Shown one piece after another: positions 22,531 through 64,000 of a DNA stretch of 64,000 nucleotides. A program made the translations under genes and the position numbers. Source of the stretch: Malus domestica (taxonomy: Eukaryota > Streptophyta > Magnoliopsida > Rosales > Rosaceae); the NCBI RefSeq assembly GCF_042453785.1, contig NC_091662.1, positions 2,113,001 through 2,177,000 of the forward strand. The letters are read 5' to 3'. Within the stretch, counting starts at the first letter, position 1; every line of letters begins with the position of its first letter. The notes beneath the pieces were generated by a model. The model did no database searches. It had not been told where the DNA came from and worked only from the letters and a program-made list of their open reading frames with translations.

Positions 22531-23595
22531 GGGATGGGGGTTGTGGGCTGACCGAGTCGACTCAGTTGGGGGAAGAAATAATAGAGAAAATGGGACCAAG
22601 ATTAACAAGCTGCTGATATTCGCGGGAAGAGGCGGTTTTTTCCTTTTGTGAGTTTTATTTTATTTTATTATTTTTAGAAATTCTCTTTTACAAATTATTT
22701 ATTATTATTTTTTCTGGATTTTCCGAGTTATTATTAAGAAGTTAAACTGATATTACTAGCAATACTCTACATATTTTTTTTAGCACATCGATATTTTTAC
22801 ACTAAAAGGATAAGAGGGAAGGGAGAGTTCGGCTAAACCACATAATGTGCAACCTAATTTAGTATCGAATTCGTCAACCACGAGATTTGTATAAATTTGT
22901 GATTTGATGCAAAACAAAGTAGCGTCGCATTTTGCATAAATTTGGCACTATGATCCATCCCTCGTACTGAAAGTGGAATTCCGTCCAAAAAAAAAAAGAT
23001 GACTAAAATGAAATTGGCCAATGAGAAATATCATTTAAAATAAAATAGTAACATACCAACCATCTTCTAATACTCATAATACGAAAACATCTTATTGATA
23101 AATATTTATTAAACAAGTGACGTGATAAATATTTATCGAACGATTGTGTTGTAAGAAAGTTTGCGTTAGACAAAAAAAAGGGTTTCTTCCGTCGTTAGAG
23201 TCCGTTACATTCACATAAGACAAATCCACCGCATTGAATATTCAACGTCGAAGAAAAAGTCGACAATCCGTCAAGTGCCGTCTAATCGTCTGATATTTAA
23301 ACCCCGTAATTAAGTGAAGGGTTTAGTCCTTAAGATTACGCGCTTTTCGAAGAAAAGCGAAGAGTGCAACAGATACTATCCCGATCGCTCTCTGCTTTCG
23401 CAGCACAGCTCCATTGAGCGATTCCGGCCGTACGGACTCAATCTCCACCGTCTACGGCGGAGACCCAAGTCAAAAGATCTCTCCTTTCATCTTCTACACT
23501 CTCGATCGGCTCCTCCGCAGCCCTGAACAGAGCAGAGGTAAAGTTACTGATAAACCCCATTTCTTGTTGTTTCTTGGATTCAATCGAGTTCATCA
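22531..23595. promoter_or_regulatory. Divergent intergenic region between BRIZ1-like and ANTH genes
   Basis: About 1.06 kb separates the two divergent start codons, so promoter elements may be shared. A TATTTAAA box at about 23,293-23,300 precedes the ANTH leader. AT-rich tracts fill 22,650-22,800. No transposon with clear ends was seen. Confidence 0.4.
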
Positions 23596-25452: not shown

Positions 25453-25784
25453 CATTGGATGCCTTTCCTCCCCTGAGCAATTTACAGTTTTTGGATAAAG
25501 CTTAATGCTGCAGATACCTTCTCATGGTACTTTCTTTTGGAAGATGTTACATCTTTTTAAGGTTCCTTGCCATTGTGCTTATTTCTGGACTTACATGCAT
25601 TGTATGCAGTGATAACATAAAAAGGTTTGGGATTATATATTGAGAGCAAATTTGGGTTTTCAAATGTGTATAATTGGCTTGAGATATCGTGTCTGATACG
25701 CTACAATTTTATCACTTTAGGCATATTTATTGCTCCATAAGCTTAAAGTTTATGTAGAACGTTTAGAGATATTTTGACCAACTA

Positions 25785-25942
25785 TAATTTAAGGATAGTG
25801 CGCTACACACTGATTTTTATTTCTCGCACATTCTTGGCAATTTTTGGCCTTTCATCGTCTTTAACTAATTTCATCCGATGGTTGAAAATTCAGAGGTATG
25901 TGTGAGAAAAAAACATGTGTGGATAGCAATACCCTAATTTAA
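25785..25942. mobile_element. 142-bp MITE with 8-bp target duplication
   Basis: TAATTTAA at 25,785-25,792 and 25,935-25,942 flanks a unit whose ends GGATAGTGCGCTACACAC and GTGTGGATAGCAATACCC are imperfect inverted repeats. The internal TTTCATCCGATGGTTGAA motif resembles that of the MITE at 56,364. Confidence 0.65.
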
Positions 25943-26072
25943 AAGCTCAAGGTGTAGCAAAAATTGCATGAAAACGAGGGTTTAGATGTTTTTTCCAAAA
26001 CTTCAAAAAATAGATCACAATTCATGATCATATAGCTCACAGTTTTTTGTGAACCATAAAAAAATAGAAGTT

Positions 26073-26225
26073 TTAACGAAAAATCTACGGTACTGTTTAC
26101 TTTAACGAAAAATCACATTTTTACACTAAAAAATCAAACTTAATACTATTCATTTTACCATTTATTTTGTCTTTATCGTTAAAACTTAAAATTTTCAAGT
26201 TATTTTCATTAGTTTTTCTTTTTGT
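26073..26225. repeat. TTTAACGAAAAATCACA-type short repeat
   Basis: Contains ACGGTACTGTTTACTTTAAC, TTTTTACACTAAAAAATCAA, CATTTTACCATTTATTTTGT and CTTTATCGTTAAAACT in order. From memory this order is common in apple and pear intergenic DNA; it is one reason for the Rosaceae suggestion. Borders are approximate. Confidence 0.45.
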
Positions 26226-26472
26226 TTTTGCACTTAGGAGTGTTTTGAACTCCCTGCGTCATGAATTTTAAACTTTTTGTTGTTTTTAGTGTAAATTAGT
26301 ATTAAAATCGGTTAGCGGTTTATATTTATGGATTTTTAAAGAAAATAAATATAAAAAAATGTCTGCTACGATACATTACAAAATTCCTTAAACCCAAGCG
26401 GGTCACAGACGTTCACCAAAACCTCAACCTCGCGCCAAATCACTCCAGGGCTCAACCTCCCTCCACCTGAAC

Positions 26473-28752
26473 ATGCATCAAAACGTCGTCGTTTTGGACA
26501 ACGGCGGCGGCCTAATCAAAGCCGGCCTCGGCGGCGAGCGCGACCCCTCGGCCATTATACCCAACTGTGTGTACCGCCCGATATCCTCCAAGAAATGGGT
26601 CCACCCCTCCCCCACCGAGCCCATGGACCTCACCTCCGCCGCCGTCCGCCGCCCAATCGACCGCGGCTACCTAATAAACCCGGACCTCCAGCGCGAGATC
26701 TGGGCTAACCTCTTCTCCTCCCTCCTTCGGGTCAACCCGGCTCAATCCTACCTCCTCCTGACGGAGCCCCTCTTCGCCCTCCCCTCCATCCAACGCGCCA
26801 CCGACGAGCTCGTCTTCGAGGACTTCAACTTCTCGGCGCTCTACGTCGCGAACTCCCCCTCCCTCGCCCACCTTTGCGAGGCCAGCCGCCGCCAAATCAA
26901 GGCGCAGTACAGCCTCGTCGTCGACTGCGGCTTCTCCTTCACGCACGCCGCCCCCGTCTTCCAGAACTTCACCATCAACTACGCAGCCAAGCGGATCGAT
27001 TTGGGCGGCAAGGCATTGACCAATTACCTCAAGGAGCTCGTCTCTTACCGCTCCGTCAATGTCATGGACGAAACGTTTCTCATCGACGATGTTAAGGAGA
27101 AGCTCTGCCTTGTTTCCATGGACGTTGATCGTGACCTCCAGATTGCAAAGTACGTAGCTTTTCTTAATTTTTTTGTTAGGATTTCTGAATTTAATTTGAT
27201 TTTGGTTGTGGGTTTGTTGAAGATGCAAGAATCTCATGTCGAAAAATTGAACAATATGTAATGAGTGAGTGATTATACCCTTAATGACATCGAGGCCTTT
27301 TGTGATAAAATTCCGCCCTTGCTGTGCTAGTGGGTGGTAATGAGTGATTCGACCCATAATGGATAGTATCGGTGTTATTAGTAGTCGGCCGCTGGTCCGT
27401 TTAACTGAAATCTTGACAGGGTTTTTGTTGTTTTGAAATGGGTGTTTAGGAAACATGGGAAGGACAATCTTTTCAGGTGCACTTATGTGTTGCCTGACGG
27501 CATTACGCACACAAAGGGGTTTGTTAAGAACCCAGAGGAGGCGAAGAGATACTTGGCTTTGAGAGATGGTGACAAACTTAAAGATGTGGAGAAGATGGAT
27601 TTGGATCAGATGGAGGTTACATACAAGTTGGCGGATCGAAAGAAGATTGATTTGAGCAAGACTGTAAAATTTCCTCTCGTGTGTTTGAATGAATTGAACA
27701 ACTGCTTTGTTTGTTTACTAGTTTTGAGTGTGGTTTGGTGGTTTTCTTGTAGGAATTTGACCTGACAAATGAAAGGTTCCTAGTGCCAGAGATGATCTTC
27801 CATCCTGCTGATCTGGGTTTGTTTTGCATTCTTGTTTCTTGTTTCAATTTGGGGTTTTTGTTTACTTTTTTATGCATATATGTTGTATTATGTGTTACTG
27901 AATCAACATTATAATCTCCTCTTCGGGCTCATGTTGGTTGGCGCTTATTACTACCGGTCAGCTTTCGCAAATTGTTGATATTTGTAGAGCATAGCATTGG
28001 AAATATGTTCTTTAGGTGTTTCAATACAAAGTGATGGCGTGTGGTATAGTAATATGGGGATAGTCAGTGTTGATCTTTACTCAGTCCGTTCGGAACTATA
28101 TGCTTAGTGCGAAGGGAAGTGCTAACTTGGGCCTGTTTTCGCAGGAATGAATCAGGCTGGACTAGCAGAGTGTATTGTTCGATCTGTCACCTCCTGCCCA
28201 CCACATCTACAGCCTGTACTTTATGAAAAGTGACCTTTCAAGCTCTGCATTTTTCTTGAGGAAAATAGAAAAGAATTCGTTTTCGATACTTACTAACTTG
28301 TCTGAGTTGTGTTGGCAGCATTCTCTTAACAGGTGGAAGCACTCTATTTCCTCGACTAGCTGATAGACTGTACGGCAATGGTCACTTTTCCATTTAAATA
28401 TACAAGATCAAAATTCATACGAAAACATTCTTTCGGACTTTTAAGTTTTTATTGATATTTTGCAGAGAGAGGGAGCTGCGGCCGCTTGTTCCTGATGACT
28501 ATCCAGTGAAGATAACTCCTCAAGAAGAGTAACGTTTCTCCTTATACCTACTTGCATTTTTTCGACTTAAAAAAAAAAAAAAGATACCACTTGACGTTTT
28601 ATTAAAAAATTTCATGTTTCTCCAGCCCCATACTAAGCGTTTGGAGGGGAGGATCTATTTTAGCATCAAGCCCGGATTTTGAAGCAGTGTGTGTCACTAA
28701 GGCTGAGTATGAGGAGCTTGGTTCTGCTCGATGTCGCAGGAGATTCCTTTAA
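26473..28752 (+). CDS. ARP6: Actin-related protein 6, SWR1 chromatin-remodelling subunit, 7 exons
   Basis: ARP6 (ESD1/SUF3 in Arabidopsis) is a nuclear subunit of the SWR1 complex that deposits histone H2A.Z and affects flowering time and temperature response. Exons: 26473-27149, 27450-27663, 27753-27816, 28145-28229, 28319-28369, 28466-28528, 28626-28752. The N-terminus VVLDNGGGLIKAGLGGERDP is the actin-fold phosphate-1 loop. RPIDRGYLINPDLQREIWA, LVVDCGFSFTHA and KRIDLGGKALTNYLKELVSY are family signatures. Later exons give CTYVLPDGITHTKG, DLTNERFLVPEMIFHPADLG, MNQAGLAECIVRSV and ILLTGGSTLFPRL, and the end GSARCRRRFL is typical of ARP6. The first exon is markedly GC-rich and C-ended in codon use compared with the rest. 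Splice phases are consistent across all six introns. The gene is convergent with the WDR11-like gene. Confidence 0.94.
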
Positions 28753-29880
28753 CGAGTGCATTGAATCTTGAAGGGTATGCTATCTGAAGACCATCATCAC
28801 CTTTCACTGTAATTTACCTTGTCGTTCTGTTTGGTTGAGAAGATTATTAGCGATGGAGTTGAACTATCACCATCCGTTTTAAATTTTCTGGACAGCAGCT
28901 TTGGCAAGCAGATAGTCCACAAGGGAAAATGCAGCTAAGTGTGCGCCTGTCACTTTTTGTTGTCACCATTCACCAGTCACTGCTGAAGAAAAGGAAGTAG
29001 AAGAAGGCTTCGCGGCTTCAAGTACCAGTCACCGCTGAAGAAAAGGAAGCAGAAGCAGGCTTCGCAGCTTCAAGTACTAGCAGTGGCACGCTCGCAACTA
29101 ACACAAACTTTTTTTCCTGACGTCTTTGTTGGTAGAAATCGAGCTGGAAGATTTGAGGTTCGACCCCCTTGCCACGGAAGCCTGCCTACACTATCCAGAG
29201 AACCGATTATTGTTGTGGCCTGGATTTGCGTATCAGAGGAAGTGTGCGGGAGACGGCGACTCGTTGGCCGTCAGAAGCTGCATTCCGGTGTCTTGTAAAT
29301 CAAAGTCGTATTTGATCTCAGCTTTGCGGTCCAAATCAAGGTGAAAAACATATCGTATTAAAGCACACCCACGATTCAAGCAATTCAAAGCATTTTCAAC
29401 TGTCAGATTGAATGAATTGAAGATATGACAAAAAATTAACAAACGTGTAGAAGGTAGAATTAGGTGTTTGAATGGCACTATCGATGACATATTAGCGTAT
29501 TCCATACGAGCTCCCGCCCCTCAGCATCTTGAAAAAGAATGATTTAATAGTAAAATTCCAAATAGTATAGCATTCTATCTCTTTTCGAAACGAAGAAATA
29601 ACGGCGTTACATACATTTTCGACCACAAAAATTTCGAGATTTGTCTGATAATTTTTCTACGTTTACAACATTTTCGAGTAATATACGATATACTCCTCTC
29701 CCAGTCGATTACTATCCCAAGATATCGATTTTTCGTGTCCTGAATCCCGTAAGAGCATCATACAATACAAGGGATTTCTTCAACCTGCTTCCAATTTAAC
29801 CTACGTCGAACCGTATGCAAATGTAAAATATGGACGAGTTAAAGGACTGGATTGTAACCAAGTGACTAGGGCCGATCCTT
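28753..29880. other. Convergent 3' spacer between ARP6 and WDR11-like genes
   Basis: Contains the 3' untranslated ends of both genes. A 53-bp direct duplication lies at about 28,974-29,080: TCACTGCTGAAGAAAAGGAA recurs as TCACCGCTGAAGAAAAGGAA. Short open frames at 29,083-29,344 have no recognisable domains. Confidence 0.5.
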
Positions 29881-32800
29881 TCATTCAGCGAATGGTTGCG
29901 AGTCCATGCATAGATGCACCAGTTTCCTTTGGTATTGCCCGTAATATTCGCCGACTGCCATAACGTCTTCGCTCTCGGGGCCTAACCCAGGCAAGTAGAG
30001 CAGCTTGTCCTTGATCAAAGAACTGGATTCATCGTCGCAGTTGCCTAAATCAGAGATGAAGTTGGCATGAACTTCTCGACAAGCAAGGATGAACATAGCG
30101 GCCGTGTCAGGTTGTTGGGCCTCACGAAGTGCTGCCAATGCCTCTTGTAGTGCACCAGCTGCAACATACAAAATGAGGGCCCTCCATATGTTGTGTTCAG
30201 CGCGAAGGACGTGCGAAGCCCATCTTAGCAACACCCTGGAAGAACATTAATACGCACAGCTCAGCTACCATAACAACGAAAAACTGGGGACTAGTAACCG
30301 TGTAATTTAGCCAAAAGGTAAGCCGCAAAGATGGGGATGACCAATGAGTTTACATAAAGTGAAGACACATTATGGATTTGTGATATCAAAAGAAATATAC
30401 CGGGAAGGCGAAAAATAGCAAGCTAATCAATTAAAGTATACAGATGAAACTGGAGATGACAAAGGAGGCCTCCGAAACTTTTAAAAGAAAGCAAATAACC
30501 TTGCATAGTCGGATCCTTTTAAATGCGTAGCAGCTAAAGTCGCAGCATCTGTCCAGCACCCAGCATCTTGTAGCTGCATAACAGATGACATAGTAAATAG
30601 TACATAAAAACATCGCGTAAACCATTTTTTAGTGCATGATATCAAAAGAAATCTCACAACTTATATAACTGGGTTTACAGTAAATTTGTGTAAAGCAGAA
30701 CCTAACCTGAGAACACGCTTCCTGATACCTTCCAACAGCACAAAGAAGATGAGTACCAGAGAACGACCTGTCAGTCCTGACCATGTTGGCCGCAACAACC
30801 TAATAATATAAAAGTATCGAAAATCCTGAGACACTTAAACGACTTTATTCCAGCCATAACATGCATTTGATGTCATGAGTTGATCCAAACTACACACCTT
30901 GACGGCAAGTTCAAGGAGAGACTTTGACACGGCAGAAGAAAGAGCAACAGCGCGTAAAGCATTTGCAGAGAAGTAATTGCTCTCAGGAGGAGTGGAAAGC
31001 AATAAACTAACCGCAGCTTCTAAGTTGCCAACGGAGACAAGCCTATATCATCAAGAACATAAAGTAAATAAAAAACCTCCGAAATGGAAATTTTGCTTTC
31101 TTTTTGAAGCCTAAAGTTTTACATGTACAAGTAACTGAGCAATTTGGGTATTTGGCATGTTGCCAGAGACGAAGATGACAGGAAGGATGGAACTTGGAAA
31201 AAATTAGATTTCCTGTATATTTTCTAATGCACATATGCTTATATGCTTTCAAACATATGGAGTTCTACCAAGCAATTAAATATTTACCCAATAGCAACTA
31301 AACCAGCCAGTATCAACTCTTACTTAAACATACTCTAGCAGTTAGTTTGGCAGTTCTTCTAAGAAATAAGAATGATATTGAATACTCACTCATGTACACG
31401 ATTCTGAATAGCATCTTCTCCCTCCAACTTCTCATGCCAAGGAATACGTTCACTGGCATTTGCCCACAAATCCTCTTGCTCAAAAGCCAATAACCTGAGC
31501 TGACCTTGATTCTGCTAACCATAGAAGTCGATAAATTACAGAGATGTTCAAAGCTTATATGGAGGAAAAAATCACATAATAGTTAGAATTGATGAGCACA
31601 AGATATAGGAGAGATGTGAGGTAACGTAGCGATCTAGCTTAAAAACTTGTACAAAAACTTGAGAATAATATCATCCAGAAATGTGGCTTACCATTTCATC
31701 TTTCTTTTCCGTTCCAGACACTGACTTTCCTTTTGATGTTATCCTACTCAGCATAGATGCATCATCAATCTCTGGAACGGGTGCTGACGCAGGGGTTTTT
31801 TGTGGAGACTTGTTTACCATCTTATTCATCAAATGGTTAAGAGCACGAGGCAGTTGTAGCCAGAAAAGAGCTTCTGAGGATTCACCAAAAATTGCAGCAG
31901 CAAAAGCAAATCTCACAGAAAAACCTTTGTTGACCACCATTGCATATAATTTTGCCCTCTCATCATCCAGTATGCAGCCTGGGGAAATATAACATTTATA
32001 ATATAAGAGAAAAGAACACAAAATAGTACGATACCTAGATATAGCTCTGCATGAGTAGAAACATCACAAGAAAGACAGAGGACCCACCTTCTTTACGATA
32101 AGGTTCTAAGACTTTAAGCAGCAATTCTGGTACCACAGGGTCACCAACAGGTGGTAAATTGATCATGTAACTTCGAAGATCCTCATTGGACTTGGGAGTT
32201 CCTGGAATTTTGTGAGGCCTCTTATCTAAAGTCGTACTGCAAGTATTAAACCAAGAGGGCTCGACACCCAATTGTAAGATCACTCTTAATGCCTGTAACA
32301 AAGAAATCAATAAATTCCAGTTGGTCAAAACTGAATCTCTACTATCTTCTGTTAACAATAAAACATAAAGCAGGCTATGTGGTTATTGATTCAGAACCAC
32401 TGTCAACTTTTCCAGTAGATTCTGCTATTTTCAGTATACAATTTGGTTAGGAACTCTCTTCTAACAAGAACTAGGGCCATAAGGTTGCAGATTAGCATAT
32501 ATGAACGAACATAAAACTCCAGTTGTCAAAGGGCACAATTGACTAATAATCAACAGAACTGGAATAGATAAGATATTGCTATCATGAAATAAAATATAAG
32601 GAAAATGGAAATTAAAAATCATTGTTACCAGGGCATGTGGTGTTGGAAGCAGTATAGGAGAGCATAGAGGCATAGGACGGAACCTCTCTTTTATAGATCT
32701 GGGCTGGTGGGTATAACCAAGTTTTTTGTCAATTCTGCACAAGAGTAACATTGTTAAAAGTACAGAACTGACGACGCCCATACAGGCCATCCGCATTCCC

Positions 32801-35800
32801 CCCCTCCCCAATACTTAAATAACCTGAGATATAACGAAATTCCTCAACAAAGTTTGTAACATACATATTAATCTCAACAAGGCGAAAGCTACTATCAGCT
32901 CCAGCTATGCACAATAACAGTGGATCAGTTTTGTCAGTCCGCAAAGGCAACCAATCAAGTTCCAACACAAGGGTTCCAGGAAATTGAGGCTGTAAAAGAG
33001 AATTGGCTAATGGGTCCGGAGAATCCTGCAATTAGAAAACATGTAGAGAGTTATGGAAAAATGATAAGAAAGGTCATCTAGATAAACCATATAAATATTT
33101 CTTTTATACTTACAAGGTCAAATACTGAAAATGTATTGTCATAGAATAGTACAGCAACGCGCCCCCTACTGCGGTCTCCAGGCACAACAGGTGAGAATTT
33201 AATTCTCCGGATACCTTCTCTATGAGTGTTAAACGAAGAAGAATGTCCAGTAGTTACATCCCACCAGCGAATATTTCCTGATCTGTCCCCCATAACCTGA
33301 AAATAATTTACAGAAAATATTGAAATGATTGAGAATCTGATATAAAATACCAATTGGATGAAAAGAATACAAATTTTTTGATACATACTACATGAGGCAA
33401 CCGGTAGGCCATGGCAGTAATTAGTCCATCCGATGAGACAAATGAAGAAGAAGGCCATTTCGGTCTAGAAACAAGCAATAAAGAACCACAATGAGAAAAA
33501 CTTATTGATATGAAATAATAGTTCGTACAAGGGTACAAAGTAGAAATACACCTGAAGTCACGGATTCTTCTCCCATGAACCTCAAAAACACCAAGAGCAC
33601 CATTTGCTAGTGCAAATGCAAAGCTTTCAGAAGTGTCATCTTGAGATCCATCTGAGCTCTCTGCATTTCAGGGAAGGAGAAACTTTATTTTTGTTTAATT
33701 AAACAATCCAATAATACAGAAGTAACTCATATAGACCAAAAGCCAGTATACATATTATAGAAGTTATCAAGTAAATAAGCTCACTGGAATCAGATGATGC
33801 CTTTGTTGGAGAGGATGTCCCGTCTGATGCCACATATGTGTGATCTTTGGGGGATGATGATGATGATGATGATTGCTTAGCAGGTCCATTTTGAGCAGGT
33901 CGGGGGACTGCTGGGAGGGTCCATTCCAAAACCGTAAATGGAAGAGCCAATGATCTAAGCTACATGAGATACAGAATCAAAATCTTAACCTCTCCACTGC
34001 GAAAAGTTGTGAAATGCATAAAATAAGAAAAGGCGTGTTTTCGTAGTAGTTTGAACTTTGAAAATTGTGAGGGTTCTGTTTAATATAGTTGAAACAATCA
34101 TTTTCTGGAAAATACGTCAAGTTGGAATGTCAAATAACCAAAGAAAATAGCAAACTTACCATAATAGGACTCTTTGTCATTGCCCAAACCTCTACTGGTG
34201 CATCACGAAGCAAAATAAGAAGGTACCTGCCATTTTGTCAAAAGCATAAGCAAAATGTTACATTGTGTGGCTCAGGAAGCTATGAAGAATAACAACTGAT
34301 GTATGAAAGTAGGGGGAAGAAAAAAGAACTAAGTTAGAGACATCTGATCAAAATAGTCCAATTTACCGTATTGAGCCAACAAGCAAAAAATATTTTATTT
34401 AATATCTAAAATAGATGACGAAGTATAGTCAAAAGTGAACACTTCTAGTTTCTTTTCAGCTAAGTATCATTAAAATTTGATAAAACCAAAAACATGACAC
34501 AGAACAGAATATAGAGGACTTAACTAATAACCATAAATAAAGACAAGAATCTGGGTCTGAAGTCAACCTCCCAGAGGATGAGGCTCTTAATGCTCTTATG
34601 GGTGCACGTTCAGGCTTTTGCAAAACCCGGAATTGTCTATTTAGGCCACTTCTAGCACAGGTCACAATGAGCCTGTTGATGAAACCTCCAGATTTTTCAC
34701 TCACCTAAATATATATAAAAAAAAAGAGTCATGCTACATATAATGATCAACACACATTGATAATTATTTATAAATAGAAAAAAAGGGAAAAAAAATACCA
34801 ATCAAGGATAATGCTGAGCATAAAAGCACTAAGTAGTAGATGCATCAAACAATTAATGTGATGTTTGAATTCATCGCAATGTACCTGACTGTATGAAAAT
34901 GAAACCAGTCTAGAATTTCCAAGCCATCGTAATCCCCTAACAGTACCAGTATGAACAGAAAAACTTGCAGCGACAGCATTGGCAGAAACATCAACAACGT
35001 CAACTGTCCCACTTTGAGTTCCCAAAGCAACCAATGGAACAGCTACAACAGGATAGTTCCCCCCACCTTCATACATAATAAATTTACATGGTATCATAAT
35101 TTCTCCGAAATGATGCTAACTAAAAATATAAAATCAACATATACAGTAGATTAGTGACAAGATTAACTAACGGCCCAAAGTAGCTGTTGAAGAAGGTGAA
35201 GGTACAGCTAGCATAGTTACTGCTGAAGAAAGAAGCTGAAGCTGTCCAACTAAGCTAATCTGCATCAGTAAGTTGGCTTTGTAAGCATGCAGGCATGTAA
35301 TTTCAAATCTGCAATATCGGGGATTGGTTGCAAACTTGTATGTCATTTTGAATGAACTGAATTTACGGGTAGATATGACAGAAAGTACACAAAACAAAAC
35401 CAGCTGTGTTCTGAACTATATGCAACCATAAAAAACATATGTTATATCGCCTGTGTGCATGTACGGGTGGGCGTGTGTGTCGTTTTGGGTTATCTAATGT
35501 GTGTCGTTTTGGGTTATCTAAACAAAGTTGCGTACCAATTAATACATAGATATATTTAATAAGACGGGGAGTGGGAATTACATCTATTGATCCAAGTCAC
35601 ATCCATTATTCAAGCTATACTATATTCTCCAGCTAGAAAACCATCCAGTGAAAGCCATTAACCATGAAAAAATAAAAGTTGGAAGAAACTACAAATGAAC
35701 CTTTAGTGATAAGTCCGTATGGCTGACAATAGAATTTGAAGGTCGGTTTCTATCACCACTGATCTTTTCTATTTGTTTACCGGCTTCCATGTCAAGTCCT

Positions 35801-37370
35801 CCGGTAGAAGAAACTATAATGTTTGTATTTGTCCCAGGAACTGGCAGTTCACTAATACCCAAGTTTGTGTCATCCTTTCGATTATCTTCAAGCCCTTCGG
35901 CAGTCAAGAGCCAGTTCCATATTTTTCCATCATCAGAAATTGAGATCAAATGCGTTTTAGAAACAAGAAGAGGTTCATCACAGAAATCAAAAGGATTATC
36001 GAAATCCAAATCAGGGAAAGGAGAATGAGGTACATCATCAGAGTAAATCTTGCTGACATTCTGGAGGGTCGAATCTGATTGGGAGATGACGAGAGCAAGC
36101 AACGAAGGAGAAGGGACAGATGTGCCAATTGAAGGCATCAGCTCTTCCATTGAACACATTATGTGTACCTGCTCTCCTCTGCGCATATATACAATATGCA
36201 TAATAAGTATAATACATTACTACATTTCGGTTTTTCGATCTAAACACTTCTTAAACTTTGCCCGAAAATGGTTCAAATGATATAGATTCCAATACAATTT
36301 CACATTCTACATCCTACATTTGATCAATGGAAATTGAAAAGGCTACAATCAATCGAATTTCAAAAGACTCACTCTTTTCGGCGCCAAGTACTGAGCTTCC
36401 CGTCAAGATGAGCGCAGTAGAGGAACTCGTGATTCGGATCCGGGAGCACATCGAGAAACTTGCCGCAGCCGCGAGGCAATGTGGCAGAGAAAAGCGGCGT
36501 CTCATACTGCAAATCGAACACCACCAGCTCCCTCGGGAACGAGACGAAAAGAATGTGCCGCCACTGTGGCGAGAATGCGAACCTCACGGCGTAGATCGGG
36601 AATGCCGCCGAGGCCGACGACGAGTTCCCGGAGACTCCACCGGTCAAGTCCCTCTCCAGCTTCAGCAACTCGGTGGAGTCGGTCCGAATCTGAAGCTCCT
36701 TGATGACGACATCGGATTCCGTCTCGCCTAACACGGTGACAGAGAGCAGGAATCCTTTGAGCCCGACGACACAGAAATGGCGCGAATCGAAGGGGTCACG
36801 GCGGATGCAGGAGAGAATTTCGGGCGCCGCGTCGTATTTCCAGAAGCATCGGCCGGTGGAGCTGTTGTAGAGGGAGAGGGAGGAGAATCCGGAGATGGAG
36901 GCGAGGAGGTAGGAGTCGGGTCGGGCCTGGACCCACGCGAGGTCCTGGATGGGGAGTTTGGAGGGGGAGGAGTCGGTATCGAACCAGAGGACGGGAGACT
37001 TGAGGCGGAGGTCGAGGAGGGCGATGCGGCCCTGGCGATCGCCGGCGGCGAGGAGGAGGTGGGAGCTGGAAGGCTCGGTGGAGAGGAGGTCGCGGCGGAG
37101 AGGGAGCGGGGTCCAGCGGACGGAGGTGACGAAAGGCGAGAGAGACGATGACGTGGAGGAGGATTGGGTGGGAGGTGGCATAGGGATGCTGACAACGAGC
37201 TGCATTGAGCGGGCGTCGAGGACGGAGATGGAGCTGCCGGAGGGGAATGCGAGGAGGCCGGAGAGGCTGAGGTCGGCGGATCCGAAGTTGTTGCGGCTGG
37301 GCGGGCCCGGCAGCATGCTGTCCCAACAGTCCTGGACTGTGGACGCCGTCGAAGCTCTAGCGCTCGACAT
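29881..37370 (-). CDS. WDR11: WDR11-like WD40-repeat protein, about 19 exons
   Basis: Homologue of WDR11, a large twin-propeller protein that in animals acts with FAM91A1 and C17orf75 in endosome-to-Golgi vesicle tethering; the plant role is little known. Exon 1 (36374-37370) starts MSSARASTASTVQDCWDSML, then WD-like blades LLAFPSGSSISVLDARSM, LLLAAGDRQGRIALLDLRL and FVSFPRELVVFDLQYETPLF. Further exons: 35701-36178, 35172-35259, 34885-35066, 34568-34704, 34160-34226, about 33786-33960, 33553-33660, 33389-33464, 33114-33296, 32865-33025 and about eight more down to 29,881. They contribute GTQSGTVDVVDVSANAVA, GDRSGNIRWWDVTTGHS and RVAVLFYDNTFSVFDL. The C-terminal part is helical (AALREAQQPDTAAMFILACR, GEYYGQYQRKLVHLCMDSQP), as in WDR11. 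Exon 1 is GC-rich. Exons in 30.2-32.8 kb are approximate. Confidence 0.88.
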
Positions 37371-38835
37371 TGTTGCGTTGTGTCCGACTTTCTTCGTCTA
37401 CCGCTGCGACTTCAAGCATATCGACATTTCGGACACACAGCGAGAACAACGTTCGGTGTTTTCATCTTTATTTTATATATATAAATATTTGTAAATAGTA
37501 AATTAAATAATTAATTGTTTAGAGAAAAAAATGGGATTGAATCTGTTCTATAGACATAATGTTTTCTGTAAGTGCGGTAAAGCATCGTCTACATATTATT
37601 TGTTAAAATTATAGTTAACGTAAGGTTTCCTTTTAATTCTTCTTCATTTCTTAAAGTAGTTTTCTCTTTTATTAAGTTTTTTATAAAATGTATTTATTTA
37701 AAAAATTATTATTGACACTTTAAATTTTTATATTTAAAAAATATATTTATGAAGAATGCATACTCAGAGTGCCGATAATAATTTTTTTATTTACTTTATT
37801 ACTGTAATTTAATTAATGCTAGTTAAAATTTGGAATAGTATAAATTGTATAATATTTGTTTATGGGAGCATTTTTGCTCAACGTTAGATAAGTTTGAATT
37901 TTGAAATTCGTGTAGTGGATAAGCACAAATCTTTAAATTCAAATTCATCTAACGGTGATAAATAGGGTGGTGAGCATATACTACACTAAATGGTGGTGAG
38001 CAAAAATACACTCTTTGTTTATGTTCAAGCATTCTCACAAATAAACGACCTTGTTCTATTCAGCCTCAAGCATTACACTTCGAGTTGAATAATGAAATAA
38101 TATGCGCTTACTTTCCCAACGATGGAGGAAGTTTTTGGTATGGTTATCCGACCAAAGATTTAGCGAGTTAGACTAAGAGAGGGGTTGATAGGGCGGACCG
38201 CAAGGAATGCGCTTAGATAAGTTTTATGTTTTGATCGTACGAGTGATGTGATTCATCCGGACAGAATTTCTCCAAACATTGGGCTTGATGGCATGGTGAT
38301 GCAGAAGAGAGTCGTCGGAGTTAAGGGTCTAATCCATAACAATGGTCCAATTGAATATGATTCAATAATCCAATGGGCCTGTTTCTGTTGAAAAGGAGAT
38401 GAAAACAATGTTCATTGAATCGAATTGATATTTTCTTTGAATTTATGTGTCTGGAGAGGAATGATTCGAAGATTCGGATCATTTATTTTAAATTCTACAA
38501 CCCCCATTAGCTATTCGTCCACGTCACATAAATTAAGGTTCAGATCTCTCTCCCTCACTTTGAACTATTCAAAATTTCTCGGTCCGTCAATTCTTGAAAG
38601 CGAGGAATTCCATTGAATCAACATTTATGGCGACCAATTCAGACTATAACTTTCTCTGTGGGCCATGGCAAAATTAAAATACAATGTTGAAATTTTGAAT
38701 ACGTTTGGTACATAAAAACAAACACAAAAGAAACAATGAAATGTTTGGAAGCTTTCCTTTTCACCTGCATGACAAAGATTAAATTAAGGTTTAACAACAT
38801 TGTGGTCCTGACATTTCACTAATCATTTTGGCAGG
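37371..38835. other. AT-rich intergenic DNA upstream of WDR11-like gene
   Basis: The first few hundred bases contain the presumed WDR11-like promoter; an AT-rich run TTTATATATATAAATATTTG lies at 37,471-37,490. The remainder shows no coding signal or transposon ends that I can defend. Confidence 0.35.
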
Positions 38836-54962: not shown

Positions 54963-55694
54963 TGGGATACGAAAAAGAAAATGTTAGATATAGGATTGGG
55001 AGTCTCAATTTGGGACCTTGGGGAGACTTATGGGATACGAAAAAGAAAATGTCAAATATAGGATTGGGAGTCTCAATTTGGGACCTTGGGTTATGTGAGG
55101 GAGGTGAGGTTGAGGGGTCACCATGTGGTTAAAGAAAATGTTAAACACTAATTTCATTCAAAATATCTTATGTTTATTATTTTATTTTTTTAAATTAAAT
55201 TGTTTTATTTGGGAAATCCATCTTTGAGACCTTGAAAGTCTCTTTGAAGATCAGATCATGCTATATACTTGAAACTCTAACGTCACATATACTATTTTTT
55301 TGTAAAAAAAATAACATATTTTTCATGTCTTTCTTATATTGTAATAATTTATTATATATAAATGATTATGGTGTGTTTAAACTTATTTCATTAATTACTA
55401 CATATTTTCTACACTCACAATGTTTGCCAGCTCGCTATATAATCAACTTAAATCAGTTAAATCCATCATGTAATGCATTTCCTTCCAATTTTTTGTGATA
55501 AACTAATAGATAATTGACTAAATAAACATCCTGCAAAGTTTCAATAAAAATTTCCAGGTTTTTCTTACAATTTCCGTCGTTTTTATTCAATTTTTATCGA
55601 TATCGATAATATCCCGATATTTTCATCGATATTTCCGTATTTTTGGACTACCGATATTTCCGATATCATCGATATTTTATACCTTGATCATAAC
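54135..55694. mobile_element. hAT-like element with iterated ATATCG motifs
   Basis: ATCATAAC at 54,135-54,142 and 55,687-55,694 is an 8-bp target duplication. Ends CAATGACTAAAATATC and GATATTTTATACCTTG are imperfect inverted repeats. Subterminal zones (54,150-54,285 and 55,590-55,675) are packed with ATATCG/CGATAT motifs, possible transposase-binding sites. The interior holds a (GA)n tract (54,921-54,958) and an adjacent direct duplication of about 64 bp (54,958-55,090). No transposase frame seen. Confidence 0.75.
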
Positions 55695-56160
55695 GCATGG
55701 CTGGTATAGATTTACTGAGTCACAATTTATCCTCGGATTGACTAAAGTCTAAACTGAGCACGACCAAACGCATCTCAGTGGACAGAGCTGGCCTTAATTA
55801 ATTCATCCAAAAAATTCGAGAAAAAAGGCTTAAATAGATGAATTTCCTGTGGTGATAGGGTAGTCAGAATATATAGGTCATGTGGTAAAAAATTATTAGG
55901 ATTGAAACCCCTATAGTGAAGTCCGTAAGGATTGAAACTCACATGCTAACACAATGCTATCTTCTGACTGCTCTATCATCATGTGACTAATAATCCAATT
56001 AGGCCAAAAAAATAAAATCCAAAACTTTCCGAAACATTCGAGCAAATAAAACAAAGTCCAAAACTTCCAACTCTGAATGGAAAATCTTTGCTTTATTAGT
56101 AATGAAAAGAATCAATCAAAATGATGAAAACACATGAATATAAATTAGGTATTAAGTAGA

Positions 56161-56575
56161 ATTAATTAAAGCTATAGAAGAAGATGGCCATCGCAGTGAG
56201 AGAAGAAGAGGCGTTGCGGTCCCACCAGCGATCATCATCTTCAGAAATGTTGATAGTCACCTTCTGCCCTACATCACTGCGGTGAGTATCTACCGTGCAG
56301 ATGAAGTAACGGGTCACGTTGGAAGTCAGTGTAATACCGCAGGGCTGGAATCATAAAAATCAATAGGATGTGATATCTATACATCCCTTTTTATTTTTTT
56401 TCACATCTTTTTAGTTTTCGGTCATCAAATCGGATGAATTGAAAAAAATCAACAGACAGAAATTAACAAGAGATGTGTGAATAGTAAAAAAATGTGTGTG
56501 GATAGCACATCCAAAAACCAAGAGGGTTCGAATTTGAGCAGTCATCGTAATTGTTAGGACTCTTTGGGACACCAT
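56161..56575 (-). pseudogene. Phytocyanin exon interrupted by a MITE
   Basis: The reverse strand resembles exon 2 of the intact gene at 49,559 almost word for word: copper-loop DNA (CCGTGCAGATGAAGTAACGGGTCA is split over this region), GATGTAGGGCAGAAGGTGAC and CTGGAATCATAAA. It is cut between the halves by a 149-bp insertion (56,364-56,512). Only exon-2 material was found, and nothing resembling exon 1 follows before 56,800. Confidence 0.65.
56355..56521. mobile_element. 149-bp MITE in phytocyanin pseudogene
   Basis: AAAAATCAA (56,355-56,363) and AAAAACCAA (56,513-56,521) are a 9-bp duplication with one mismatch. Ends GGATGTGATATCTATACA and TGTGTGGATAGCACATCC are inverted repeats. The interior contains a CATCAAATCGGATGAATTGA motif related to the 25.8-kb MITE. 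Confidence 0.65.
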
Positions 56576-56819
56576 AGGTTACTAGTATTTATTAGGCCAT
56601 TGCTAATGTTAAGCCCACTAGACTACTAAACCCTTACTTCACAGCCTCCGCCACCCACACCTCTCTCGAATTCGAACCGACGAACCATCTCCCATCTTCA
56701 CTCCGACGAAACATCTCAACTCCCTCCACCACCCACAGCCACCCCTCTCTCTCTCTCACGATTCTCTCTCGCGATTCTCTCTGGATCCATCGCAGCATCC
56801 CCCAATCAGGTACAGTTTT

Positions 56820-56930
56820 GGAATTACTTTAGGGTTTGCAATTTAATTTTAGGGTTAGGGTTTTCAATTTAATTTTAGGGTTAGGGTTTTCAATTTAATT
56901 TTAGGGTCAGGGTTTGCAATTTAGTGGCGG
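56820..56930 (+). repeat. Telomere-like tandem repeat (TTTAGGGTTAGGG plus spacer)
   Basis: About three and a half copies of a roughly 34-bp unit with TTTTAGGGTTAGGGTTTTCA and ATTTAATT. TTTAGGG is the plant telomere unit and also the telo-box found in leaders of growth-related genes. It lies upstream of the TIR gene, possibly in a leader intron. Confidence 0.65.
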
Positions 56931-57289
56931 CGCACCGAAAACAACATTCCCTTTCTTTTTTTTAAAATTTTTTTATTTATCTTTATTTATTTATGCTTTT
57001 GGAACGGGAAACGAAAGCATGGGAACACAAGCATATGATTCTGATTTCAGTCCTTCACTTTCCATCTTGACTGATTCACTCTGTCAATGTTTCTCTGTTT
57101 CTGATTTCAATTTGGGATTTTAAATCATATGATTCTTCTATTGCTTTTGGGATATTATATGATGAGACTGATTCTTCGATTTGGATTTAGGTATTTCAGT
57201 ATCATCTGTTCGGCAACACAAGCACCCCCACTGCCATTTTTTCAGTCTGTGATCTGAACCACTGCTTTGCCATAACGGTCGATACTGCC

Positions 57290-60200
57290 ATGACAGCCCA
57301 CGAAGCCTCCTCTTCGTCCTCCTCCACTTCCAAACTCTGGAAGTACGACGTATTCTTGAGCTTCAGGGGTGAAGACACGCGCTATGGCTTCACGAGCCAC
57401 CTCCACGCGGCATTAACAGCCAGAGGGTACCAGGTCTTTATTGATGAGGACGATCTACCAAGAGGGGAAGAAATAAAAGAGAAACTGTTCCGTGCAATCG
57501 AAGAGTCGAGGATCTCTGTCATTATCTTCTCAAAGATGTATGGGGATTCGAGTTGGTGTCTTGACGAGCTGGTGAAGATCATGGAGTGTAGAGACAAACT
57601 GGGGCGACATGTTTTACCAATATTCTATCACGTTGATCCTTCGCATGTCAGGAAGCAGGACGGAGATTTAGCCGAAGCATTTCAGAAGCACGAAAAGGAC
57701 ATCCGTGAAGAAAAAGATGACAAGAAACGTGAAGCTAAACAAGAAAGGGTAAATCAGTGGAGAGAGGCTCTCACAAAAGCTGCAAATTTGTCTGGCCACC
57801 ATCTTCAAAGCGCTAATAATAGGTAATTATTCACCTGCTTTTCAAGATTTAAGTTGTAATACTCTAATTAACATAATCAATACACCTTAATCTCTCACGC
57901 TGATCCTTCACATGTCAGGAAGAGGCGGAGAGAGGCTCATACAGAAGCTACAAATTTGTCTGACCACCAAACAACTGGCAACGGGTAATCATTTACCTGC
58001 TTATTTCAAGATTTGAAACATTTTAGTGAATGACTTGATCTCTCAATTAATTAAAATGCTTAATTATATGAAGGGAAGAAGGAAAGAAAATTGTTTATGT
58101 ACCGATATCTCCTACCGAGCCTTCATTGAGTCCCACTAATGCTAACGAATTCAATTTTCAGGCGCGAAGCAGAGTTCATTAAAAAAATTATTAACGAGAA
58201 TATTTGTGAATGGCTCACTAGCACTAACGAATTACGTGTGGCCAAGCACATAGTTGGAATCGATTCTCGCGTTCAAGATATTATCACTTATCTTTCAAGT
58301 GGTGGATCAAATGATGTTCTCATGGTTGGAATTTGGGGGATGGGTGGATTGGTCAAAACAACAGTTGCCAAAGCCATTTATAACCAAATTCATCCTAAGT
58401 TTGAATTCAAAAGTTTCCTTGCCGGCATTCGCGATGCTACAAGTAAACATGATCTGGTTGATTTGCAAAAAAAACTTATTTTTGACATCTTGAAAAAGAA
58501 GCCTGAAATAAGCTGTGTTGACGAAGGTATCGACCTGATAAAACAACAATTTCGACATAGAAAGATACTTGTCATCGTGGACAACATAGATAAAGAGGAA
58601 CAACTGAATGCAATAGTTGGAAGTCATGATTGGTTTGGTCCTGGAAGTAGAATTATCATAACCACACGAGTTGAACGTCTACTGCAAGACCGAATCAGTA
58701 ATCTGCAAGACCGAATCAGTAATTTACCTCACGAAATTCTTGTCCTTATAGTGTCACTCTTGCCGCTAAAGGAAGCCGCAGCCACTAGTATCCTTTCTAG
58801 GCCATGGCGCCATGTCTGGGCATTTACTACGACTCTCAGTTTTGACGCTGTTAACTTTGAAGTAGGTGATACTTTGCACCGGTTCTTGGATCTTGAAGAA
58901 CAAGTGAGAGACCGGGAAAGCCGCCTCTACGTGAATTGGGTCGATCACGTTCTGGACCAACATAGAGGCCAATGCATTGACCGCTTCCGGGTTTGCTTTT
59001 TTCTGCAGCGCGACTTTGCAGGTTCCATTGACAAATGGATCCAATTTGCAATGGAAAAGAGGGTTCAAATACTTGAGCTGGAGCTTTTGACAGACTCAAT
59101 TGTTTTCCTTGATGATAACTACACATTTCCCCACAAACTACTATTGGGTCCGGAAGAGCAAAAGGGCCTGTTTTCTAACCTTCCAAGCCTACACCCTGGT
59201 GGATACAGTATTGCGCCTTTCGAGTCCCTCAGAGTCGTACGCTTTCAACATGTTGGTGTGACCGGTGAAACTCTTGAGTTCTTGCTGTCCAACTGTCCAG
59301 TTCTCGAACGTTTGTCGCTGAGTTTTGCCAAAGATTTAGTCAAGCTAAGAGTTACCGGCACCTCCATGGCATTGAAATATTTAGAGGTGAAGTATTGCCT
59401 TGAACTCAGCATCATTGAGATATCTGGTGCAAACATTGTCTCCTTTATTTATTGTGGACAGTTAATAGATTTGCGATTGAATAATGTGCCCCTGCTGGTT
59501 GAGGTATCCATTTACAAGTGGGGCACTTTTGCTGAATTCGTAAGGCTTGCGTTAAGTCAACTCTCATGCTGTCTTTCTCATTTAGAGACCCTGAAGCTGG
59601 ATATCAGGGGAGCGGTTAGCATACTTATCCCATGTTATTTGGTTGAGATCAAGTATTGTCGTGTCCCTAACTCAGTTGTTGTTGGCTTTCAGGTCTACAA
59701 TCAGAATCATGCGTTTCCCGCGTTATCAAATCTCAAGCATTTGGAATTATTAGTGGATGCCGACTACTCTCTGTCTCTTGGTCGCTTAGCTTCTTTCATG
59801 GAGGCAGCTCCTTACTTGCTCAATCTTGTTTTGGGGGTATGTATGTATTGTATGCCTTTGTTATTGATAGGTTACCAATGTAAAAGTTGATATATGTATG
59901 AATATGTTTTTGTGCGTCCATATGCTCTAGTCTCTCTGTTGCCTGTATTCTTGAAGAAACAAAATAATAAATAACGGGGTTTGTTTTGAATCTGGTTTTG
60001 TTTGCTTTCCTTGTTGCAGTTGGGTTTCAGTACGTCCAATGAGGACATGGAAATACCAGAGAAAGTTTCCAAACAACCCCATCACTTCCTCAAGCTAGTA
60101 GAAATAGCAGGGTATCGGGGCCACGAGTGCTGCGTAGAGCATGTCAGATACTTGGTGGAGAATGCTGTTGCACTGGAGAAGATTATTATAAATCCTGTTC

Positions 60201-60331
60201 GGTTTTGGTGTCGGCCGACGGGAATTGAGAGCAATGCCCTACTGGAGAATGAGGAAGAGAATGCAAGAGATCATGCTATCCAACACCTCAAGAAAAAAGT
60301 ACCTTCTAGTGTAGAATTTGTGTGCCTGTAG
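57290..60331 (+). CDS. Chimeric TIR / partial NB-ARC / F-box / LRR-FBD protein
   Basis: Exons: 57290-57822, an optional 57919-57984, 58162-59836, 60020-60331. Exon 1 is a complete TIR domain: KYDVFLSFRGEDTRYGFTSH, GYQVFIDEDDLPRGEEIKE, SWCLDELVKIMECRD, PIFYHVDPSHVRKQ. It includes the SWCLDEL motif with the catalytic-type Glu. Exon 3 continues in phase with the TNL linker (EAEFIKKI, IVGIDSRVQDI), a P-loop GIWGMGGLVKTTVAKAIYNQ, kinase-2 ILVIVDNID and RNBS-B GPGSRIIITTRVERLL. Here, at 58,681, it turns in frame into an F-box, DRISNLPHEILVLIVSLLPL and LKEAAATSILSRPWRHVWAF. Leucine-rich segments follow (LLSNCPVLERLSLSFAKDLV) and, in the last exon, an FBD-like end (HFLKLVEIAGYRGHECCVEH). GLPL, ARC2 and MHD motifs are absent. 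Known families would make the TIR half an immune NADase module and the F-box half an SCF substrate receptor. Whether one transcript spans all exons is inferred. Confidence 0.75.
57919..57984 (+). other. Possible phase-neutral cassette exon of the chimeric gene
   Basis: 66 bp flanked by cag and gtaatc, giving GKRRREAHTEATNLSDHQTT-like residues between the TIR and NB parts. It resembles the end of exon 1 (WREALTKAANLSGHH), including the preceding DNA, and keeps the reading frame whether included or skipped. Confidence 0.45.
58682..58723 (+). repeat. 21-bp tandem duplication at the NB/F-box junction
   Basis: CTGCAAGACCGAATCAGTAA plus T occurs twice without spacer (58,682-58,702 and 58,703-58,723), giving LQDRISN-LQDRISN in the protein. 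Confidence 0.9.
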
Positions 60332-61620
60332 GAGTGCAGCGCCGCAGTGCTTCAAAAAAATTAACGTCTACAGTGCTTTTAAAAAAAAGTATATGTATTG
60401 CGTATGTTCTTAGATTTTCTTTGCTTTTTCTCTTCTATGTGATTTCTTATTCGTTTCGTATCAGTAATGGTAATTTGTACGTCATACTCGTATTCTTGCT
60501 GTATATACTACATCACAAGGGGCATTTAAGTACTTGAAAAACACAGGTTTTATGCATTGCTGCTCCGTCTTTCTGCCCTTCATATAGGAGGAATTTTACA
60601 CGGGAACAATTTTTCTTGTTTTTGTTTTTATTGACGGTGGCAAGTTGTGGGTTGAACGCGAAATACATGTTGGATTTTGCAAATTGTTATATACAAAATA
60701 TTTTCACACTTATTTGTCGTTAAGAATCGTGTAAGGTAGAAATCATAACATAGCCATGATCAACACCGCATTCAACGCAATTAAGAGAAAAACTAATGAA
60801 TGTATCCGATTTAACACGAGATTGGAATTCATGATTAGACTAAAAATTGCTAACAAAATGTCTTGTTTCCAAGTGTTGAACACACTAATTTATATTTTCA
60901 TTTTCATCACAGACAAATACTTTGCTTGTAATCTCCTTAATACCATCTCCTCCCTCTGCTGCAAAAGGTACCTCTCTTCTGTAATCGTGTCCCCAGAAGG
61001 TGCCATCCAACGCAAAGAGCGACACATGTCAGTTCTTGCGGCATCCAGTCGCCAGGGATGCTTGTATCAATTGTGGCTTTGACAGTAGCTTGGCGAACCC
61101 ATGTAAGGCGACGCTGGGGAGGGCTGTTGATATATTTTAACTTGTGGCAATCTCTCAGGTTCAAACCTCTAGGGGGAATATCCTAAGACGCGTATGTAAT
61201 AGATTCAAGATTCCTAGTGTTAAAAACCATAACAAAATGAGCCTTACAGTGTATAAGTTGCAAGGATTTGAGACTGGAACTTGAAACACGCAAGCAGCAA
61301 TTTATTACTTCGGGGGATTCGAAAGAACATGAAGTTAATGACAAACACTCGATGGAAGGGCAACCACGAGTTAAGCAGAGGACTGTGCTACTTCTTTTGA
61401 AGATAACAGCTTTCAGGGACTGTTTTCAAGGAGAGAAAAATCGGATCCCAAATTCCCAACATACGTCTAATCTCACATACTCCAAGTTTAGACTAGTTAA
61501 AAGTTTTGCATTGAAAAGGATTTGGCTAGGCATACGTAGTATCCGGTTCGTTGCATCATCGTCGTTGTCATCATCATCATCATCTAATCTTGTTGAGGCC
61601 CAAGACTGACATCTAACGTT
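60332..61620. other. Spacer downstream of the chimeric gene
   Basis: No gene assigned. A (ATC)n/(TCG)n stretch lies at about 61,556-61,586. A weak NLRDCHKLKYI leucine-rich-like match on the reverse strand (61,080-61,170) is too short to call. Confidence 0.3.
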
Positions 61621-61677
61621 TTAACGTTTCTCTCCACCGCAACACTCAACCACTTGTGTCCACGCTAGTATCCTCTA

Positions 61678-61863
61678 TTAACTTAAGAGCCGTACGATGT
61701 GACATCTCTCTCTTTCAGCACACAACTCATCCAAACGTTTCAAACACCTTTCCAAGAAGTTAATGAACAATTCTGCACGTCGAACGAGTTCGTCTTCCTC
61801 ATGAAGATCACTGCACGAGTGGTCTAAGCCCTCATCGTCGAATCTAACACGGGGACTTCCAAA
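61678..61863 (-). pseudogene. DUF761-like C-terminal fragment cut by a copia LTR
   Basis: The reverse strand reads SPRVRFDDEGLDHSCSDLHE and DELVRRAELFINFLERC. An acidic region followed by an (A)E-x-FI-x-x-F helix resembles the end of plant DUF761-type proteins, though the match is from memory and short. The 5' side stops at 61,864, where the copia LTR begins, so the gene may have been cut by the insertion. Confidence 0.3.
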
Positions 61864-64000
61864 TGTTGGAGTATGTGGCCAAGTGGCCAACTTTTGGCTA
61901 TAAGCAATTCAAAAGAAAAAAAAACAACATGATGATGTTTCTTCCTTGTTTTGGGGAAAAGAAAAGCACACTTTGTCTAAAGTTTTTCTTTGGTCCATGT
62001 GAGAAGTCACGGGAGTCCTAGGGTTTTTAACTAGCAGCAATAGCTGCCTTTTGTTGTGGGAGAAAGGCTGTCACATAGAAGAAGAAAAGAGAAGGGAGTA
62101 GCAGAAAGTAGGATAGTGCACCATTTTATGTTTTAGTAGCCCATCTTTGTGAGAGGAAAAGAAGCTGCAGAGAGCAGAAAACTAAGAGTAGAAAGAGAAG
62201 AAAGAAAGGTGATTTTCTTTTTTTGTAGGTACTCACTCAATCAAAGTTGTATTTGTGTATTAGCTTTGAGCTTTGTATATAGAGGAAATTATTCACTATA
62301 TTTCCCTCTCTATTTGTTTCTTTGGTGAGTGAGAGCTATTGGGTGTATTGGGTTATTTGGGTTGTGAGATTGCCAACACTTTGTAAACTCCCATTTGGTT
62401 GATAGTGGATTATTGGGTGAGCTCCTACTGCTCCGAGGACGTACTCCAGTTACACTGACTGTTGAGGAACCTCGTTAAAATCTTGGTGTTCTTTAATATT
62501 TTGTTCTTGCATTTCATTTGGTAAATTTCCTGTGGGTTAGCTTGAGTTGGTTCCAACGGGTTTGGTGCTATCCTAGCACAACAATTGGTATCAGAGCACT
62601 GGTTGCTCTTGGGTACTATCTAGTTGCCAAAGATGTCAGACGGGCAAGATGAGAATCCTTTTGGAAGTAGCTCCGGGTTTGCAAGAACTACGGTGCAAAA
62701 TGCAAAGTTCGAAGTGGAAAAGTTTGATGGCACAAACAACTTCGGGATGTGGCAATGTGAGGTCAAAGATGTGTTGGCTCAACAAGATCTAATTGCCGCT
62801 TTGGGAGAGAAGCCGGAAACTATGTCGAAGCCGGAATGAGAGAAATTAAATTTGTGGGCTTGCTCTTCAATTCGGTTGTGCCTTGCAAAAACTCAGAAGT
62901 ATTTTGTGATGCGGGTGACATTAGCAAGTGTGTTGTGGCAAAAATTGGAAGACAAGTATATGACGAAGAGTGCAGAGAACCGGCTACACTTGAAGAAAAA
63001 GCTCTACCGCTTCCAATACAAAGAAGGTACAAAAATGATTAGACACCTTGATGCTTTTAATAAGTTGATTGCCGACTTATTAAATTTAGATGAGGATATT
63101 AAGGATGAAGATAAGGCCTTAATATTGTTGAATTCCTTGCCGGACTCTTATGAGCATTTTGTTACCACTATTATGCATGGTAAAGAAACTGTGAAATTTG
63201 AAGATGTGTCAAATGCCTTGATGAATTATGAAATGAGGAGATAAAAACCATGATAGTACCTCTGAAGCTTTATTTGTTAGAGGTAGATCATCGGAGAGAA
63301 GATCATCTTCTAGTAGGAAAAAATCACAGTCTCGACCTAGAGGAAACTCTAAAGGTAGAAAACCTTTGGAAAGGGATGAATGTGCCTTTTGTCGTAATAA
63401 GGGCCATTGGAAGAAAGATTGTCCTAAATTGAAGACCAAAGGCAAAGAAAGTTCTGAAGCTAATGTTGCTGAGGTTGAAACAGATTTTTCTGATTTTGCT
63501 TTAACCACTTCCTCATCATTTGATTGTGCTACTAAGTGGGTGTTGGATACGGGTTGTACTCATCATATGACTTCTCACAAGGATTGGTTTTCAAGCTTGA
63601 AAGAGTTTGATGGTGGCGTTGTGTTCATGGGAGATGACAATCCTTGCACAACAAAAGGGATTGGTACAGTTCGTTTGAAGTTGCATGATGGCATGGTTAA
63701 AGAGTTGACAGGTGTTCGGTATGTACCGAATTTGAAGAAAAATCTTATTTCTTTGGGTACTTTGGAATCCAAGGGTTTCAGGTTTCATTCAGATGGACAT
63801 ACATTGAAAGTTACTTATGGTGCACTTGTTGTGATGAAAGCTCATAGATGTGGCCATTTGTATTTATTGCAGGGAAGCACTGTGACAGGTGAAGCATCTG
63901 TAGTCTCTGAAAATATGGGCACATCTGATTCAAATACTACTAGATTGTGGCATATGAGATTAGGCCATGCCGGTGAGAAAGCTCTACAAGGGCTTGTGAA
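61864..64000 (+). mobile_element. Ty1/copia LTR retrotransposon (5' part)
   Basis: The 5' LTR runs from TGTTGGAG at 61,864 to about 62,583 (CACAACA), 720 bp. TGGTATCAGAGC at 62,586-62,597 is a perfect initiator-Met tRNA primer site. Gag begins MSDGQDENPF at 62,633. The element order gag, zinc knuckle, protease and pre-integrase domain matches Tnt1-like copia elements. The copy runs off the window end, so the integrase, reverse transcriptase and 3' LTR are not seen. It inserted next to, or into, a DUF761-like fragment. Confidence 0.88.
62633..64000 (+). pseudogene. Copia gag-protease-integrase start, interrupted by stops
   Basis: The gag core (KFDGTNNFGMWQCEVKDVL, LILLNSLPDSYEHFVTTIMH) is interrupted by a TGA at 62,837-62,839. 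The frame also changes at about 63,242, just after the gag core. Further on come a CCHC knuckle (CAFCRNKGHWKKDC, about 63,380), the protease active site WVLDTGCTHHMT (63,540) and a pre-integrase motif (RLWHMRLGHAGEKALQ, 63,942). The breaks mean that this copy cannot make a full polyprotein. Confidence 0.8.

Follow-up and report, generated by a model that had tools for sequence, protein, structure and literature searches.

An in-frame fusion of a TIR/NB-ARC receptor half to an F-box/LRR/FBD protein, predicted in the apple genome

In apple (Malus domestica), the front half of a TIR/NB-ARC immune receptor gene is joined in frame to a gene for an F-box/LRR/FBD protein. The gene lies in a 64-kb stretch of contig NC_091662.1 (64,000 nucleotides, positions 2,113,001 to 2,177,000), referred to here as the window. 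Three exons on the plus strand splice in frame to encode a predicted protein of 839 aa in which Pfam places, in order, a TIR domain, the front half of a TNL-type NB-ARC, an F-box, an LRR region and an FBD. The explanation favoured here, with a probability of roughly 0.6, is that this is a chimeric gene formed by illegitimate recombination, likely a birth-and-death by-product of two expanding families and without an established role. The features on which the argument draws are as follows, in coordinates of the window.

57290..57822, plus strand: exon 1, start codon and TIR domain (PF01582), 177 codons plus 2 nt
57554..57571, plus strand: WCLDEL motif with an aligned Glu, from alignment to the RUN1 entries
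57823..58161, plus strand: intron 1 (GT-AG), from its boundaries and phase
57888..58014, plus strand: within intron 1, an incomplete and diverged duplicate of the exon 1 3' end with its splice donor
58162..59836, plus strand: exon 2, a single open frame with the NB half, the junction, the F-box and the first part of the LRR
58337..58363, plus strand: Walker A / P-loop GMGGLVKTT, from alignment to Roq1 and RPP1
58565..58591, plus strand: kinase-2 region ILVIVDNID, from alignment
58643..58669, plus strand: RNBS-B region GSRIIITTR, from alignment; NB similarity runs on for no more than about ten residues
58682..58723, plus strand: junction, two identical in-frame 21-bp units, from repeat comparison (D5)
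58715..58819, plus strand: F-box domain, profile 1-35 of 43 (PF00646, 3.5e-6)
58949..59602, plus strand: first part of an LRR of At1g61320/AtMIF1 type, profile 1-215 of 384 (PF23622, 2.4e-27)
59837..60019, plus strand: intron 2 (GT-AG), within the F-box-derived half, from its boundaries
60020..60331, plus strand: exon 3, FBD (PF08387, 4.3e-7), end of the LRR model (PF23622, 2.5e-5) and stop codon
61186..61881, minus strand: probable broken F-box/FBD-type LRR relic (PF24758 below cut-off; shuffle-tested alignment)

The exons contribute 533, 1675 and 312 nt to a coding sequence of 2520 nt that ends with a stop codon at 60329-60331. Intron 1 begins with GT at 57823 and has an AG ending at 58161, while intron 2 begins with GT at 59837 and has an AG ending at 60019. 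An earlier, sequence-only reading of this DNA had proposed these exon coordinates, with splice phases fitting from TIR to FBD, and both proved exact. It had also put the open frame across the junction at over 550 codons; the frame of exon 2 is in fact free of stops for 586 codons (58130-59890). As a control for chance frames, 20 windows of 64 kb were simulated from a first-order Markov model, and the longest stop-free run per window ranged from 132 to 206 codons. Since 586 codons far exceed the simulated maximum of 206, a chance open frame is ruled out and the frame of the fusion is genuine in sequence. The same holds for the in-frame union of TIR/NB-ARC with F-box/LRR/FBD, the central claim of that reading, for which the Pfam matches lie above the curated cut-offs. 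The NB-ARC and a non-NLR domain, the F-box, are predicted within one exon, as expected of an NLR-ID fusion. Base composition does not cleanly part the TNL-derived from the F-box-derived half, with GC3 values of 0.52 for the TIR, 0.32 for the NB, 0.46 for the F-box and LRR and 0.48 for the FBD. A single-sequence AlphaFold2 model of exon 2 was uninformative (mean pLDDT 37.2), and a search of viral contigs with the exon 2 protein found no match.

The TIR domain is the strongest domain match of the gene (PF01582, 6.7e-51), and its best-scoring solved relatives are the TIR domains of RPV1 (2e-51) and RUN1 (1.6e-47). At the column where two RUN1 entries differ (E in 6o0w, A in 7s2z) the fusion has Glu, within WCLDEL, and this is presumably the Glu that is catalytic in TIR NADases. 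A TIR exon followed by an NB exon is the arrangement of the TNL receptors Roq1, RPP1, RUN1 and RPV1. No second full copy of exon 1 was found within the 64-kb window by blastn or tblastn. Retention of intron 1 would give a TIR-only protein of 178 aa, because an in-frame stop lies at 57824-57826. The diverged copy within this intron is 88% (D2) or 89% (D3) identical to exon 1 in the repeat comparisons; in a gapped alignment 102 of 115 aligned positions are identical, and its score of 110.6 stands against 36.2 for the highest of 100 shuffles. The copy includes the splice donor and is a possible alternative exon.

The NB-ARC domain is incomplete. Its Pfam match (3.5e-10; 40.0 bits against a cut-off of 23.5) covers only positions 4-140 of a 248-position profile, and the alignment to Roq1, the best among solved structures (2e-28), stops at query residue 178, at about nucleotide 58696 and just past RNBS-B. 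The P-loop, kinase-2 and RNBS-B regions of a TNL receptor, all three of which the earlier reading had placed in this exon, are located, GSRIIITTR being what we take to be RNBS-B and ILVIVDNID what we take to be kinase-2; the P-loop, however, is altered. Where Roq1 and RPP1 have Gly before the Lys, the alignments give Val, and GMGGLVKTT thus departs from the Walker A pattern GxxxxGK[TS]. The domains that follow RNBS-B in TNL receptors, ARC1, ARC2/MHD and the NLR-type LRR, are absent from the fusion gene. A six-frame Pfam scan of 55001-64000, with E up to 0.1, detected neither an NB-ARC remainder nor an NLR-type LRR, so the TNL is truncated and not interrupted nearby; insertion of an F-box gene into an otherwise present TNL is rejected on the same ground. 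With Walker A altered and everything past RNBS-B lost, nucleotide-switched assembly is not expected. From what is known of NLR biochemistry, the NB half should not work as an ATP/nucleotide switch, and the altered P-loop together with the missing ARC and LRR domains argue against a working NLR. Truncated receptors of the TIR-NBS (TN) class are known (cited in PMC9153377) and likewise have a TIR and an NB without the NLR LRR, but here the NB is still shorter and runs on into an F-box protein.

That F-box protein resembles the FBD-associated F-box/LRR proteins (Pfam models of At1g61320/AtMIF1 and At5g56370 type), with LRR and FBD following the F-box colinearly. The F-box had been described as complete; PF00646 scores above its curated cut-off (27.1 against 20.5 bits), and by profile coverage the domain is nearly complete. 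The alternative F-box-like model PF12937 stays below its cut-off (21 against 24.3 bits). A generic LRR_2 match in exon 2 is weak and below cut-off, the other LRR matches being to models of F-box proteins, and the PF23622 match in exon 3 (profile 285-377) is by itself also below cut-off, at 24.3 against 26.9 bits. Neither the F-box/LRR part nor the F-box alone found a match in the PDB up to E 10. The FBD lies on the far side of an intron from the main LRR match, which argues that this half was not copied through mRNA; a processed retrocopy of an F-box gene is accordingly rejected.

The two halves meet at an exact tandem repeat. Its 21-bp units, 58702 being the last position of the first (58682-58702) and 58703 the first of the second (58703-58723), each code for LQDRISN, and the repeat spans the point at which NB similarity ends (about 58696) and the F-box profile starts (58715). 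Most simply, 21 bp would have been duplicated in frame at the time of the join or after it. Judged from the domain boundaries, and not from parent sequences, the unit would mix TNL-derived and F-box-derived letters. There is no in-frame ATG from the junction to the end of the F-box, in which the gene differs from FBD-associated F-box/LRR proteins, as it does in having a TIR and half an NB as its N-terminus. Between aa 238, which lies in the NB half, and aa 475, which follows the F-box, the protein contains no Met. Exon 2 therefore offers no start at which a free-standing, complete F-box protein could begin, and a complete F-box could be translated only within the fusion or from an earlier Met that lies in the NB half. 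This rejects an independent F-box gene that initiates within exon 2.

Downstream, tail to tail with the fusion gene, lies the probable relic of a second F-box/FBD-type gene. It matches PF24758 at 6.9e-5, below cut-off, and at 0.001 in a second Pfam scan, and one of its frames aligns to the F-box half of the fusion with a score of 78, where the best of 100 shuffles reached 52. For the other two relic frames the alignment scores stayed within the range of their shuffles, and the relic is absent from the tblastn matches of the fusion protein up to E 10; at best, then, the two are distantly related. In another of its frames, 61602-61655 hints at a frameshift; this piece alone did not exceed shuffles. 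Together, the intronic copy of exon 1 and the downstream relic show that the locus bears marks of turnover around the fusion.

Besides the gene itself, blastn of the exons against the window found only the intronic copy of exon 1 and a 24-nt match at 22569-22592, and tblastn of the 839-aa protein returned nine matches at E 2.3 to 9.3, one of which is the intronic copy and none the downstream relic. Upstream of the TIR exon, at 56829-56923, is a tandem telomere-like repeat containing TTAGGGTTT, with a 26-bp spacing and three overlapping copies of 43 nt. The end of the window (62774-64000) holds the start of a copia-type element in two plus-strand frames, with gag (PF14223) and Pol_BBD above cut-off and a zinc knuckle and gag_pre-integrs below it. 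Judged by eye, a stop-free frame of 1057 codons at 4593-7766 is similar to a LINE-type endonuclease/reverse transcriptase, and open frames at 17517-37397 to TOPLESS-type WD40, clathrin-assembly (ENTH/ANTH), actin-related and WD40 proteins; the window thus looks like ordinary gene-bearing plant chromosome. A tRNA scan of the 64-kb window found none.

The combination had been put forward as a candidate for an undescribed architecture. As a class it is already described: Sarris et al. (2016) counted 93 NLR-ID genes in apple (PMC4759884), and Table 1 of that paper lists the F-box as an NLR integrated domain in M. domestica, S. lycopersicum and S. tuberosum and the FBD in B. napus and M. domestica. 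F-box domains are also mentioned on R-genes in a survey of strawberry (PMC6778783), and a study of Triticeae tabulates the F-box among NLR integrated domains (PMC8832786), while the terms 'F-box' and 'FBD' are absent from the main text of a survey of NBS genes in 34 species (PMC11126693). The exact order, TIR, half NB, F-box, LRR and FBD, was not seen in the main-text literature among the matches listed. No such fusion occurs in passages of PMC3503547, PMC6032283 and PMC9153377, and no TIR-NB-F-box-FBD gene in the titles and abstract openings among the matches listed. The gene thus belongs to the NLR-ID class already recorded and is an unusual member of it. Like the apple fusions of PMC4759884, for which Table 1 names neither architecture nor gene, it encodes an NB-ARC protein with F-box and FBD Pfam domains; it differs in having only half an NB-ARC and no NLR-type LRR.

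From this anatomy we infer a recombination origin, a promoter, transcription and activities along the following lines. Illegitimate recombination would have taken the first half of a TNL gene, comprising its promoter, TIR exon, intron 1 and the NB exon up to RNBS-B, and fused it to an F-box/LRR/FBD gene at a point shortly before the F-box. The join would have been in frame, with the 21-bp unit at the join duplicated. Any transcript would begin on the TNL side, its product consisting of TIR, half an NB, F-box, LRR and FBD. Whatever activity remained would come from the TIR, possibly also from a TIR-only product of intron 1 retention, and binding of Skp1 by the F-box might perhaps add to it. In favour of a chimera is the correctly phased, open frame of 839 aa with domain matches from TIR to FBD. 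The placing of the 21-bp unit where NB similarity stops and the F-box begins also points to it, as does the second, probable F-box/FBD-type relic downstream, and F-box and FBD fusions are on record for apple NLRs (PMC4759884). Against reading the gene as a by-product, 839 codons without a stop or frameshift fit a selected gene as well.

An artefact of assembly, in which a mis-join or unresolved haplotypes wrongly united two separate genes at 58682-58723, is unlikely. TNL and F-box families are both large and repetitive, and an exact 21-bp tandem repeat sits at the join; moreover, RNA-seq reads linked NLR and ID in only 8 of 20 expressed predicted fusions in B. rapa, against 20 of 25 in wheat (PMC4759884). 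A random mis-join, however, would rarely keep both modules in frame, on one strand and at domain edges, and the window contains no N. It is improbable, too, that the protein is a functional TIR tethered to an SCF ligase, with the F-box binding Skp1, the LRR/FBD picking a partner and the TIR brought to the ligase, there to signal upon binding of an LRR ligand or to be kept low by ubiquitination. Arg is common at the F-box position where the fusion has Pro (SRPWR), and this tells against such a role, as do the half NB and its altered P-loop. On the other side are the frame open through both modules, the aligned Glu kept in the TIR, the nearly complete F-box with colinear LRR and FBD and the report that the F-box protein CPR1 limits TNL levels (PMC9153377, PMC6032283). 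That the gene is transcribed and selectively maintained, as an NLR-type TIR in an SCF substrate receptor whose F-box LRR, on binding a ligand or effector, controls TIR signalling or turnover without a nucleotide switch, must be called distinctly improbable.

It would be very improbable for the gene to act as an NLR integrated decoy, its F-box/LRR/FBD part baiting an effector that targets F-box proteins and its TIR reporting the binding, perhaps with a paired NLR. The integrated-decoy receptors known to us keep a full NB-ARC, unlike the half with an altered P-loop found here; the Pfam scan of 55001-64000 detected no second NLR, and within the window tblastn gave no other convincing copy of a TIR or NB. 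What speaks for a decoy is that F-box and FBD have both been published as NLR integrated domains, apple included (PMC4759884). Hardly credible is a reading in which the useful product is the TIR alone, made by retention of intron 1 or by splicing from the donor that the intronic copy carries, with the F-box half a passenger. TNL genes are known to give alternative TIR transcripts, the TIR is the strongest domain match and retention would yield the 178-aa protein, but an in-frame stop within an intron is common by chance.

Co-occurrence of domains by itself makes no new receptor, and on the favoured reading, a chimera born of recombination, the gene is a clean example of two fast-evolving plant families yielding a chimeric gene. 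If it is expressed and conserved, it would be a case of an NLR fusion that has wholly lost both its switch and its sensor half, and the protein would form a natural link, within one polypeptide, between TIR signalling and SCF ubiquitin ligases.
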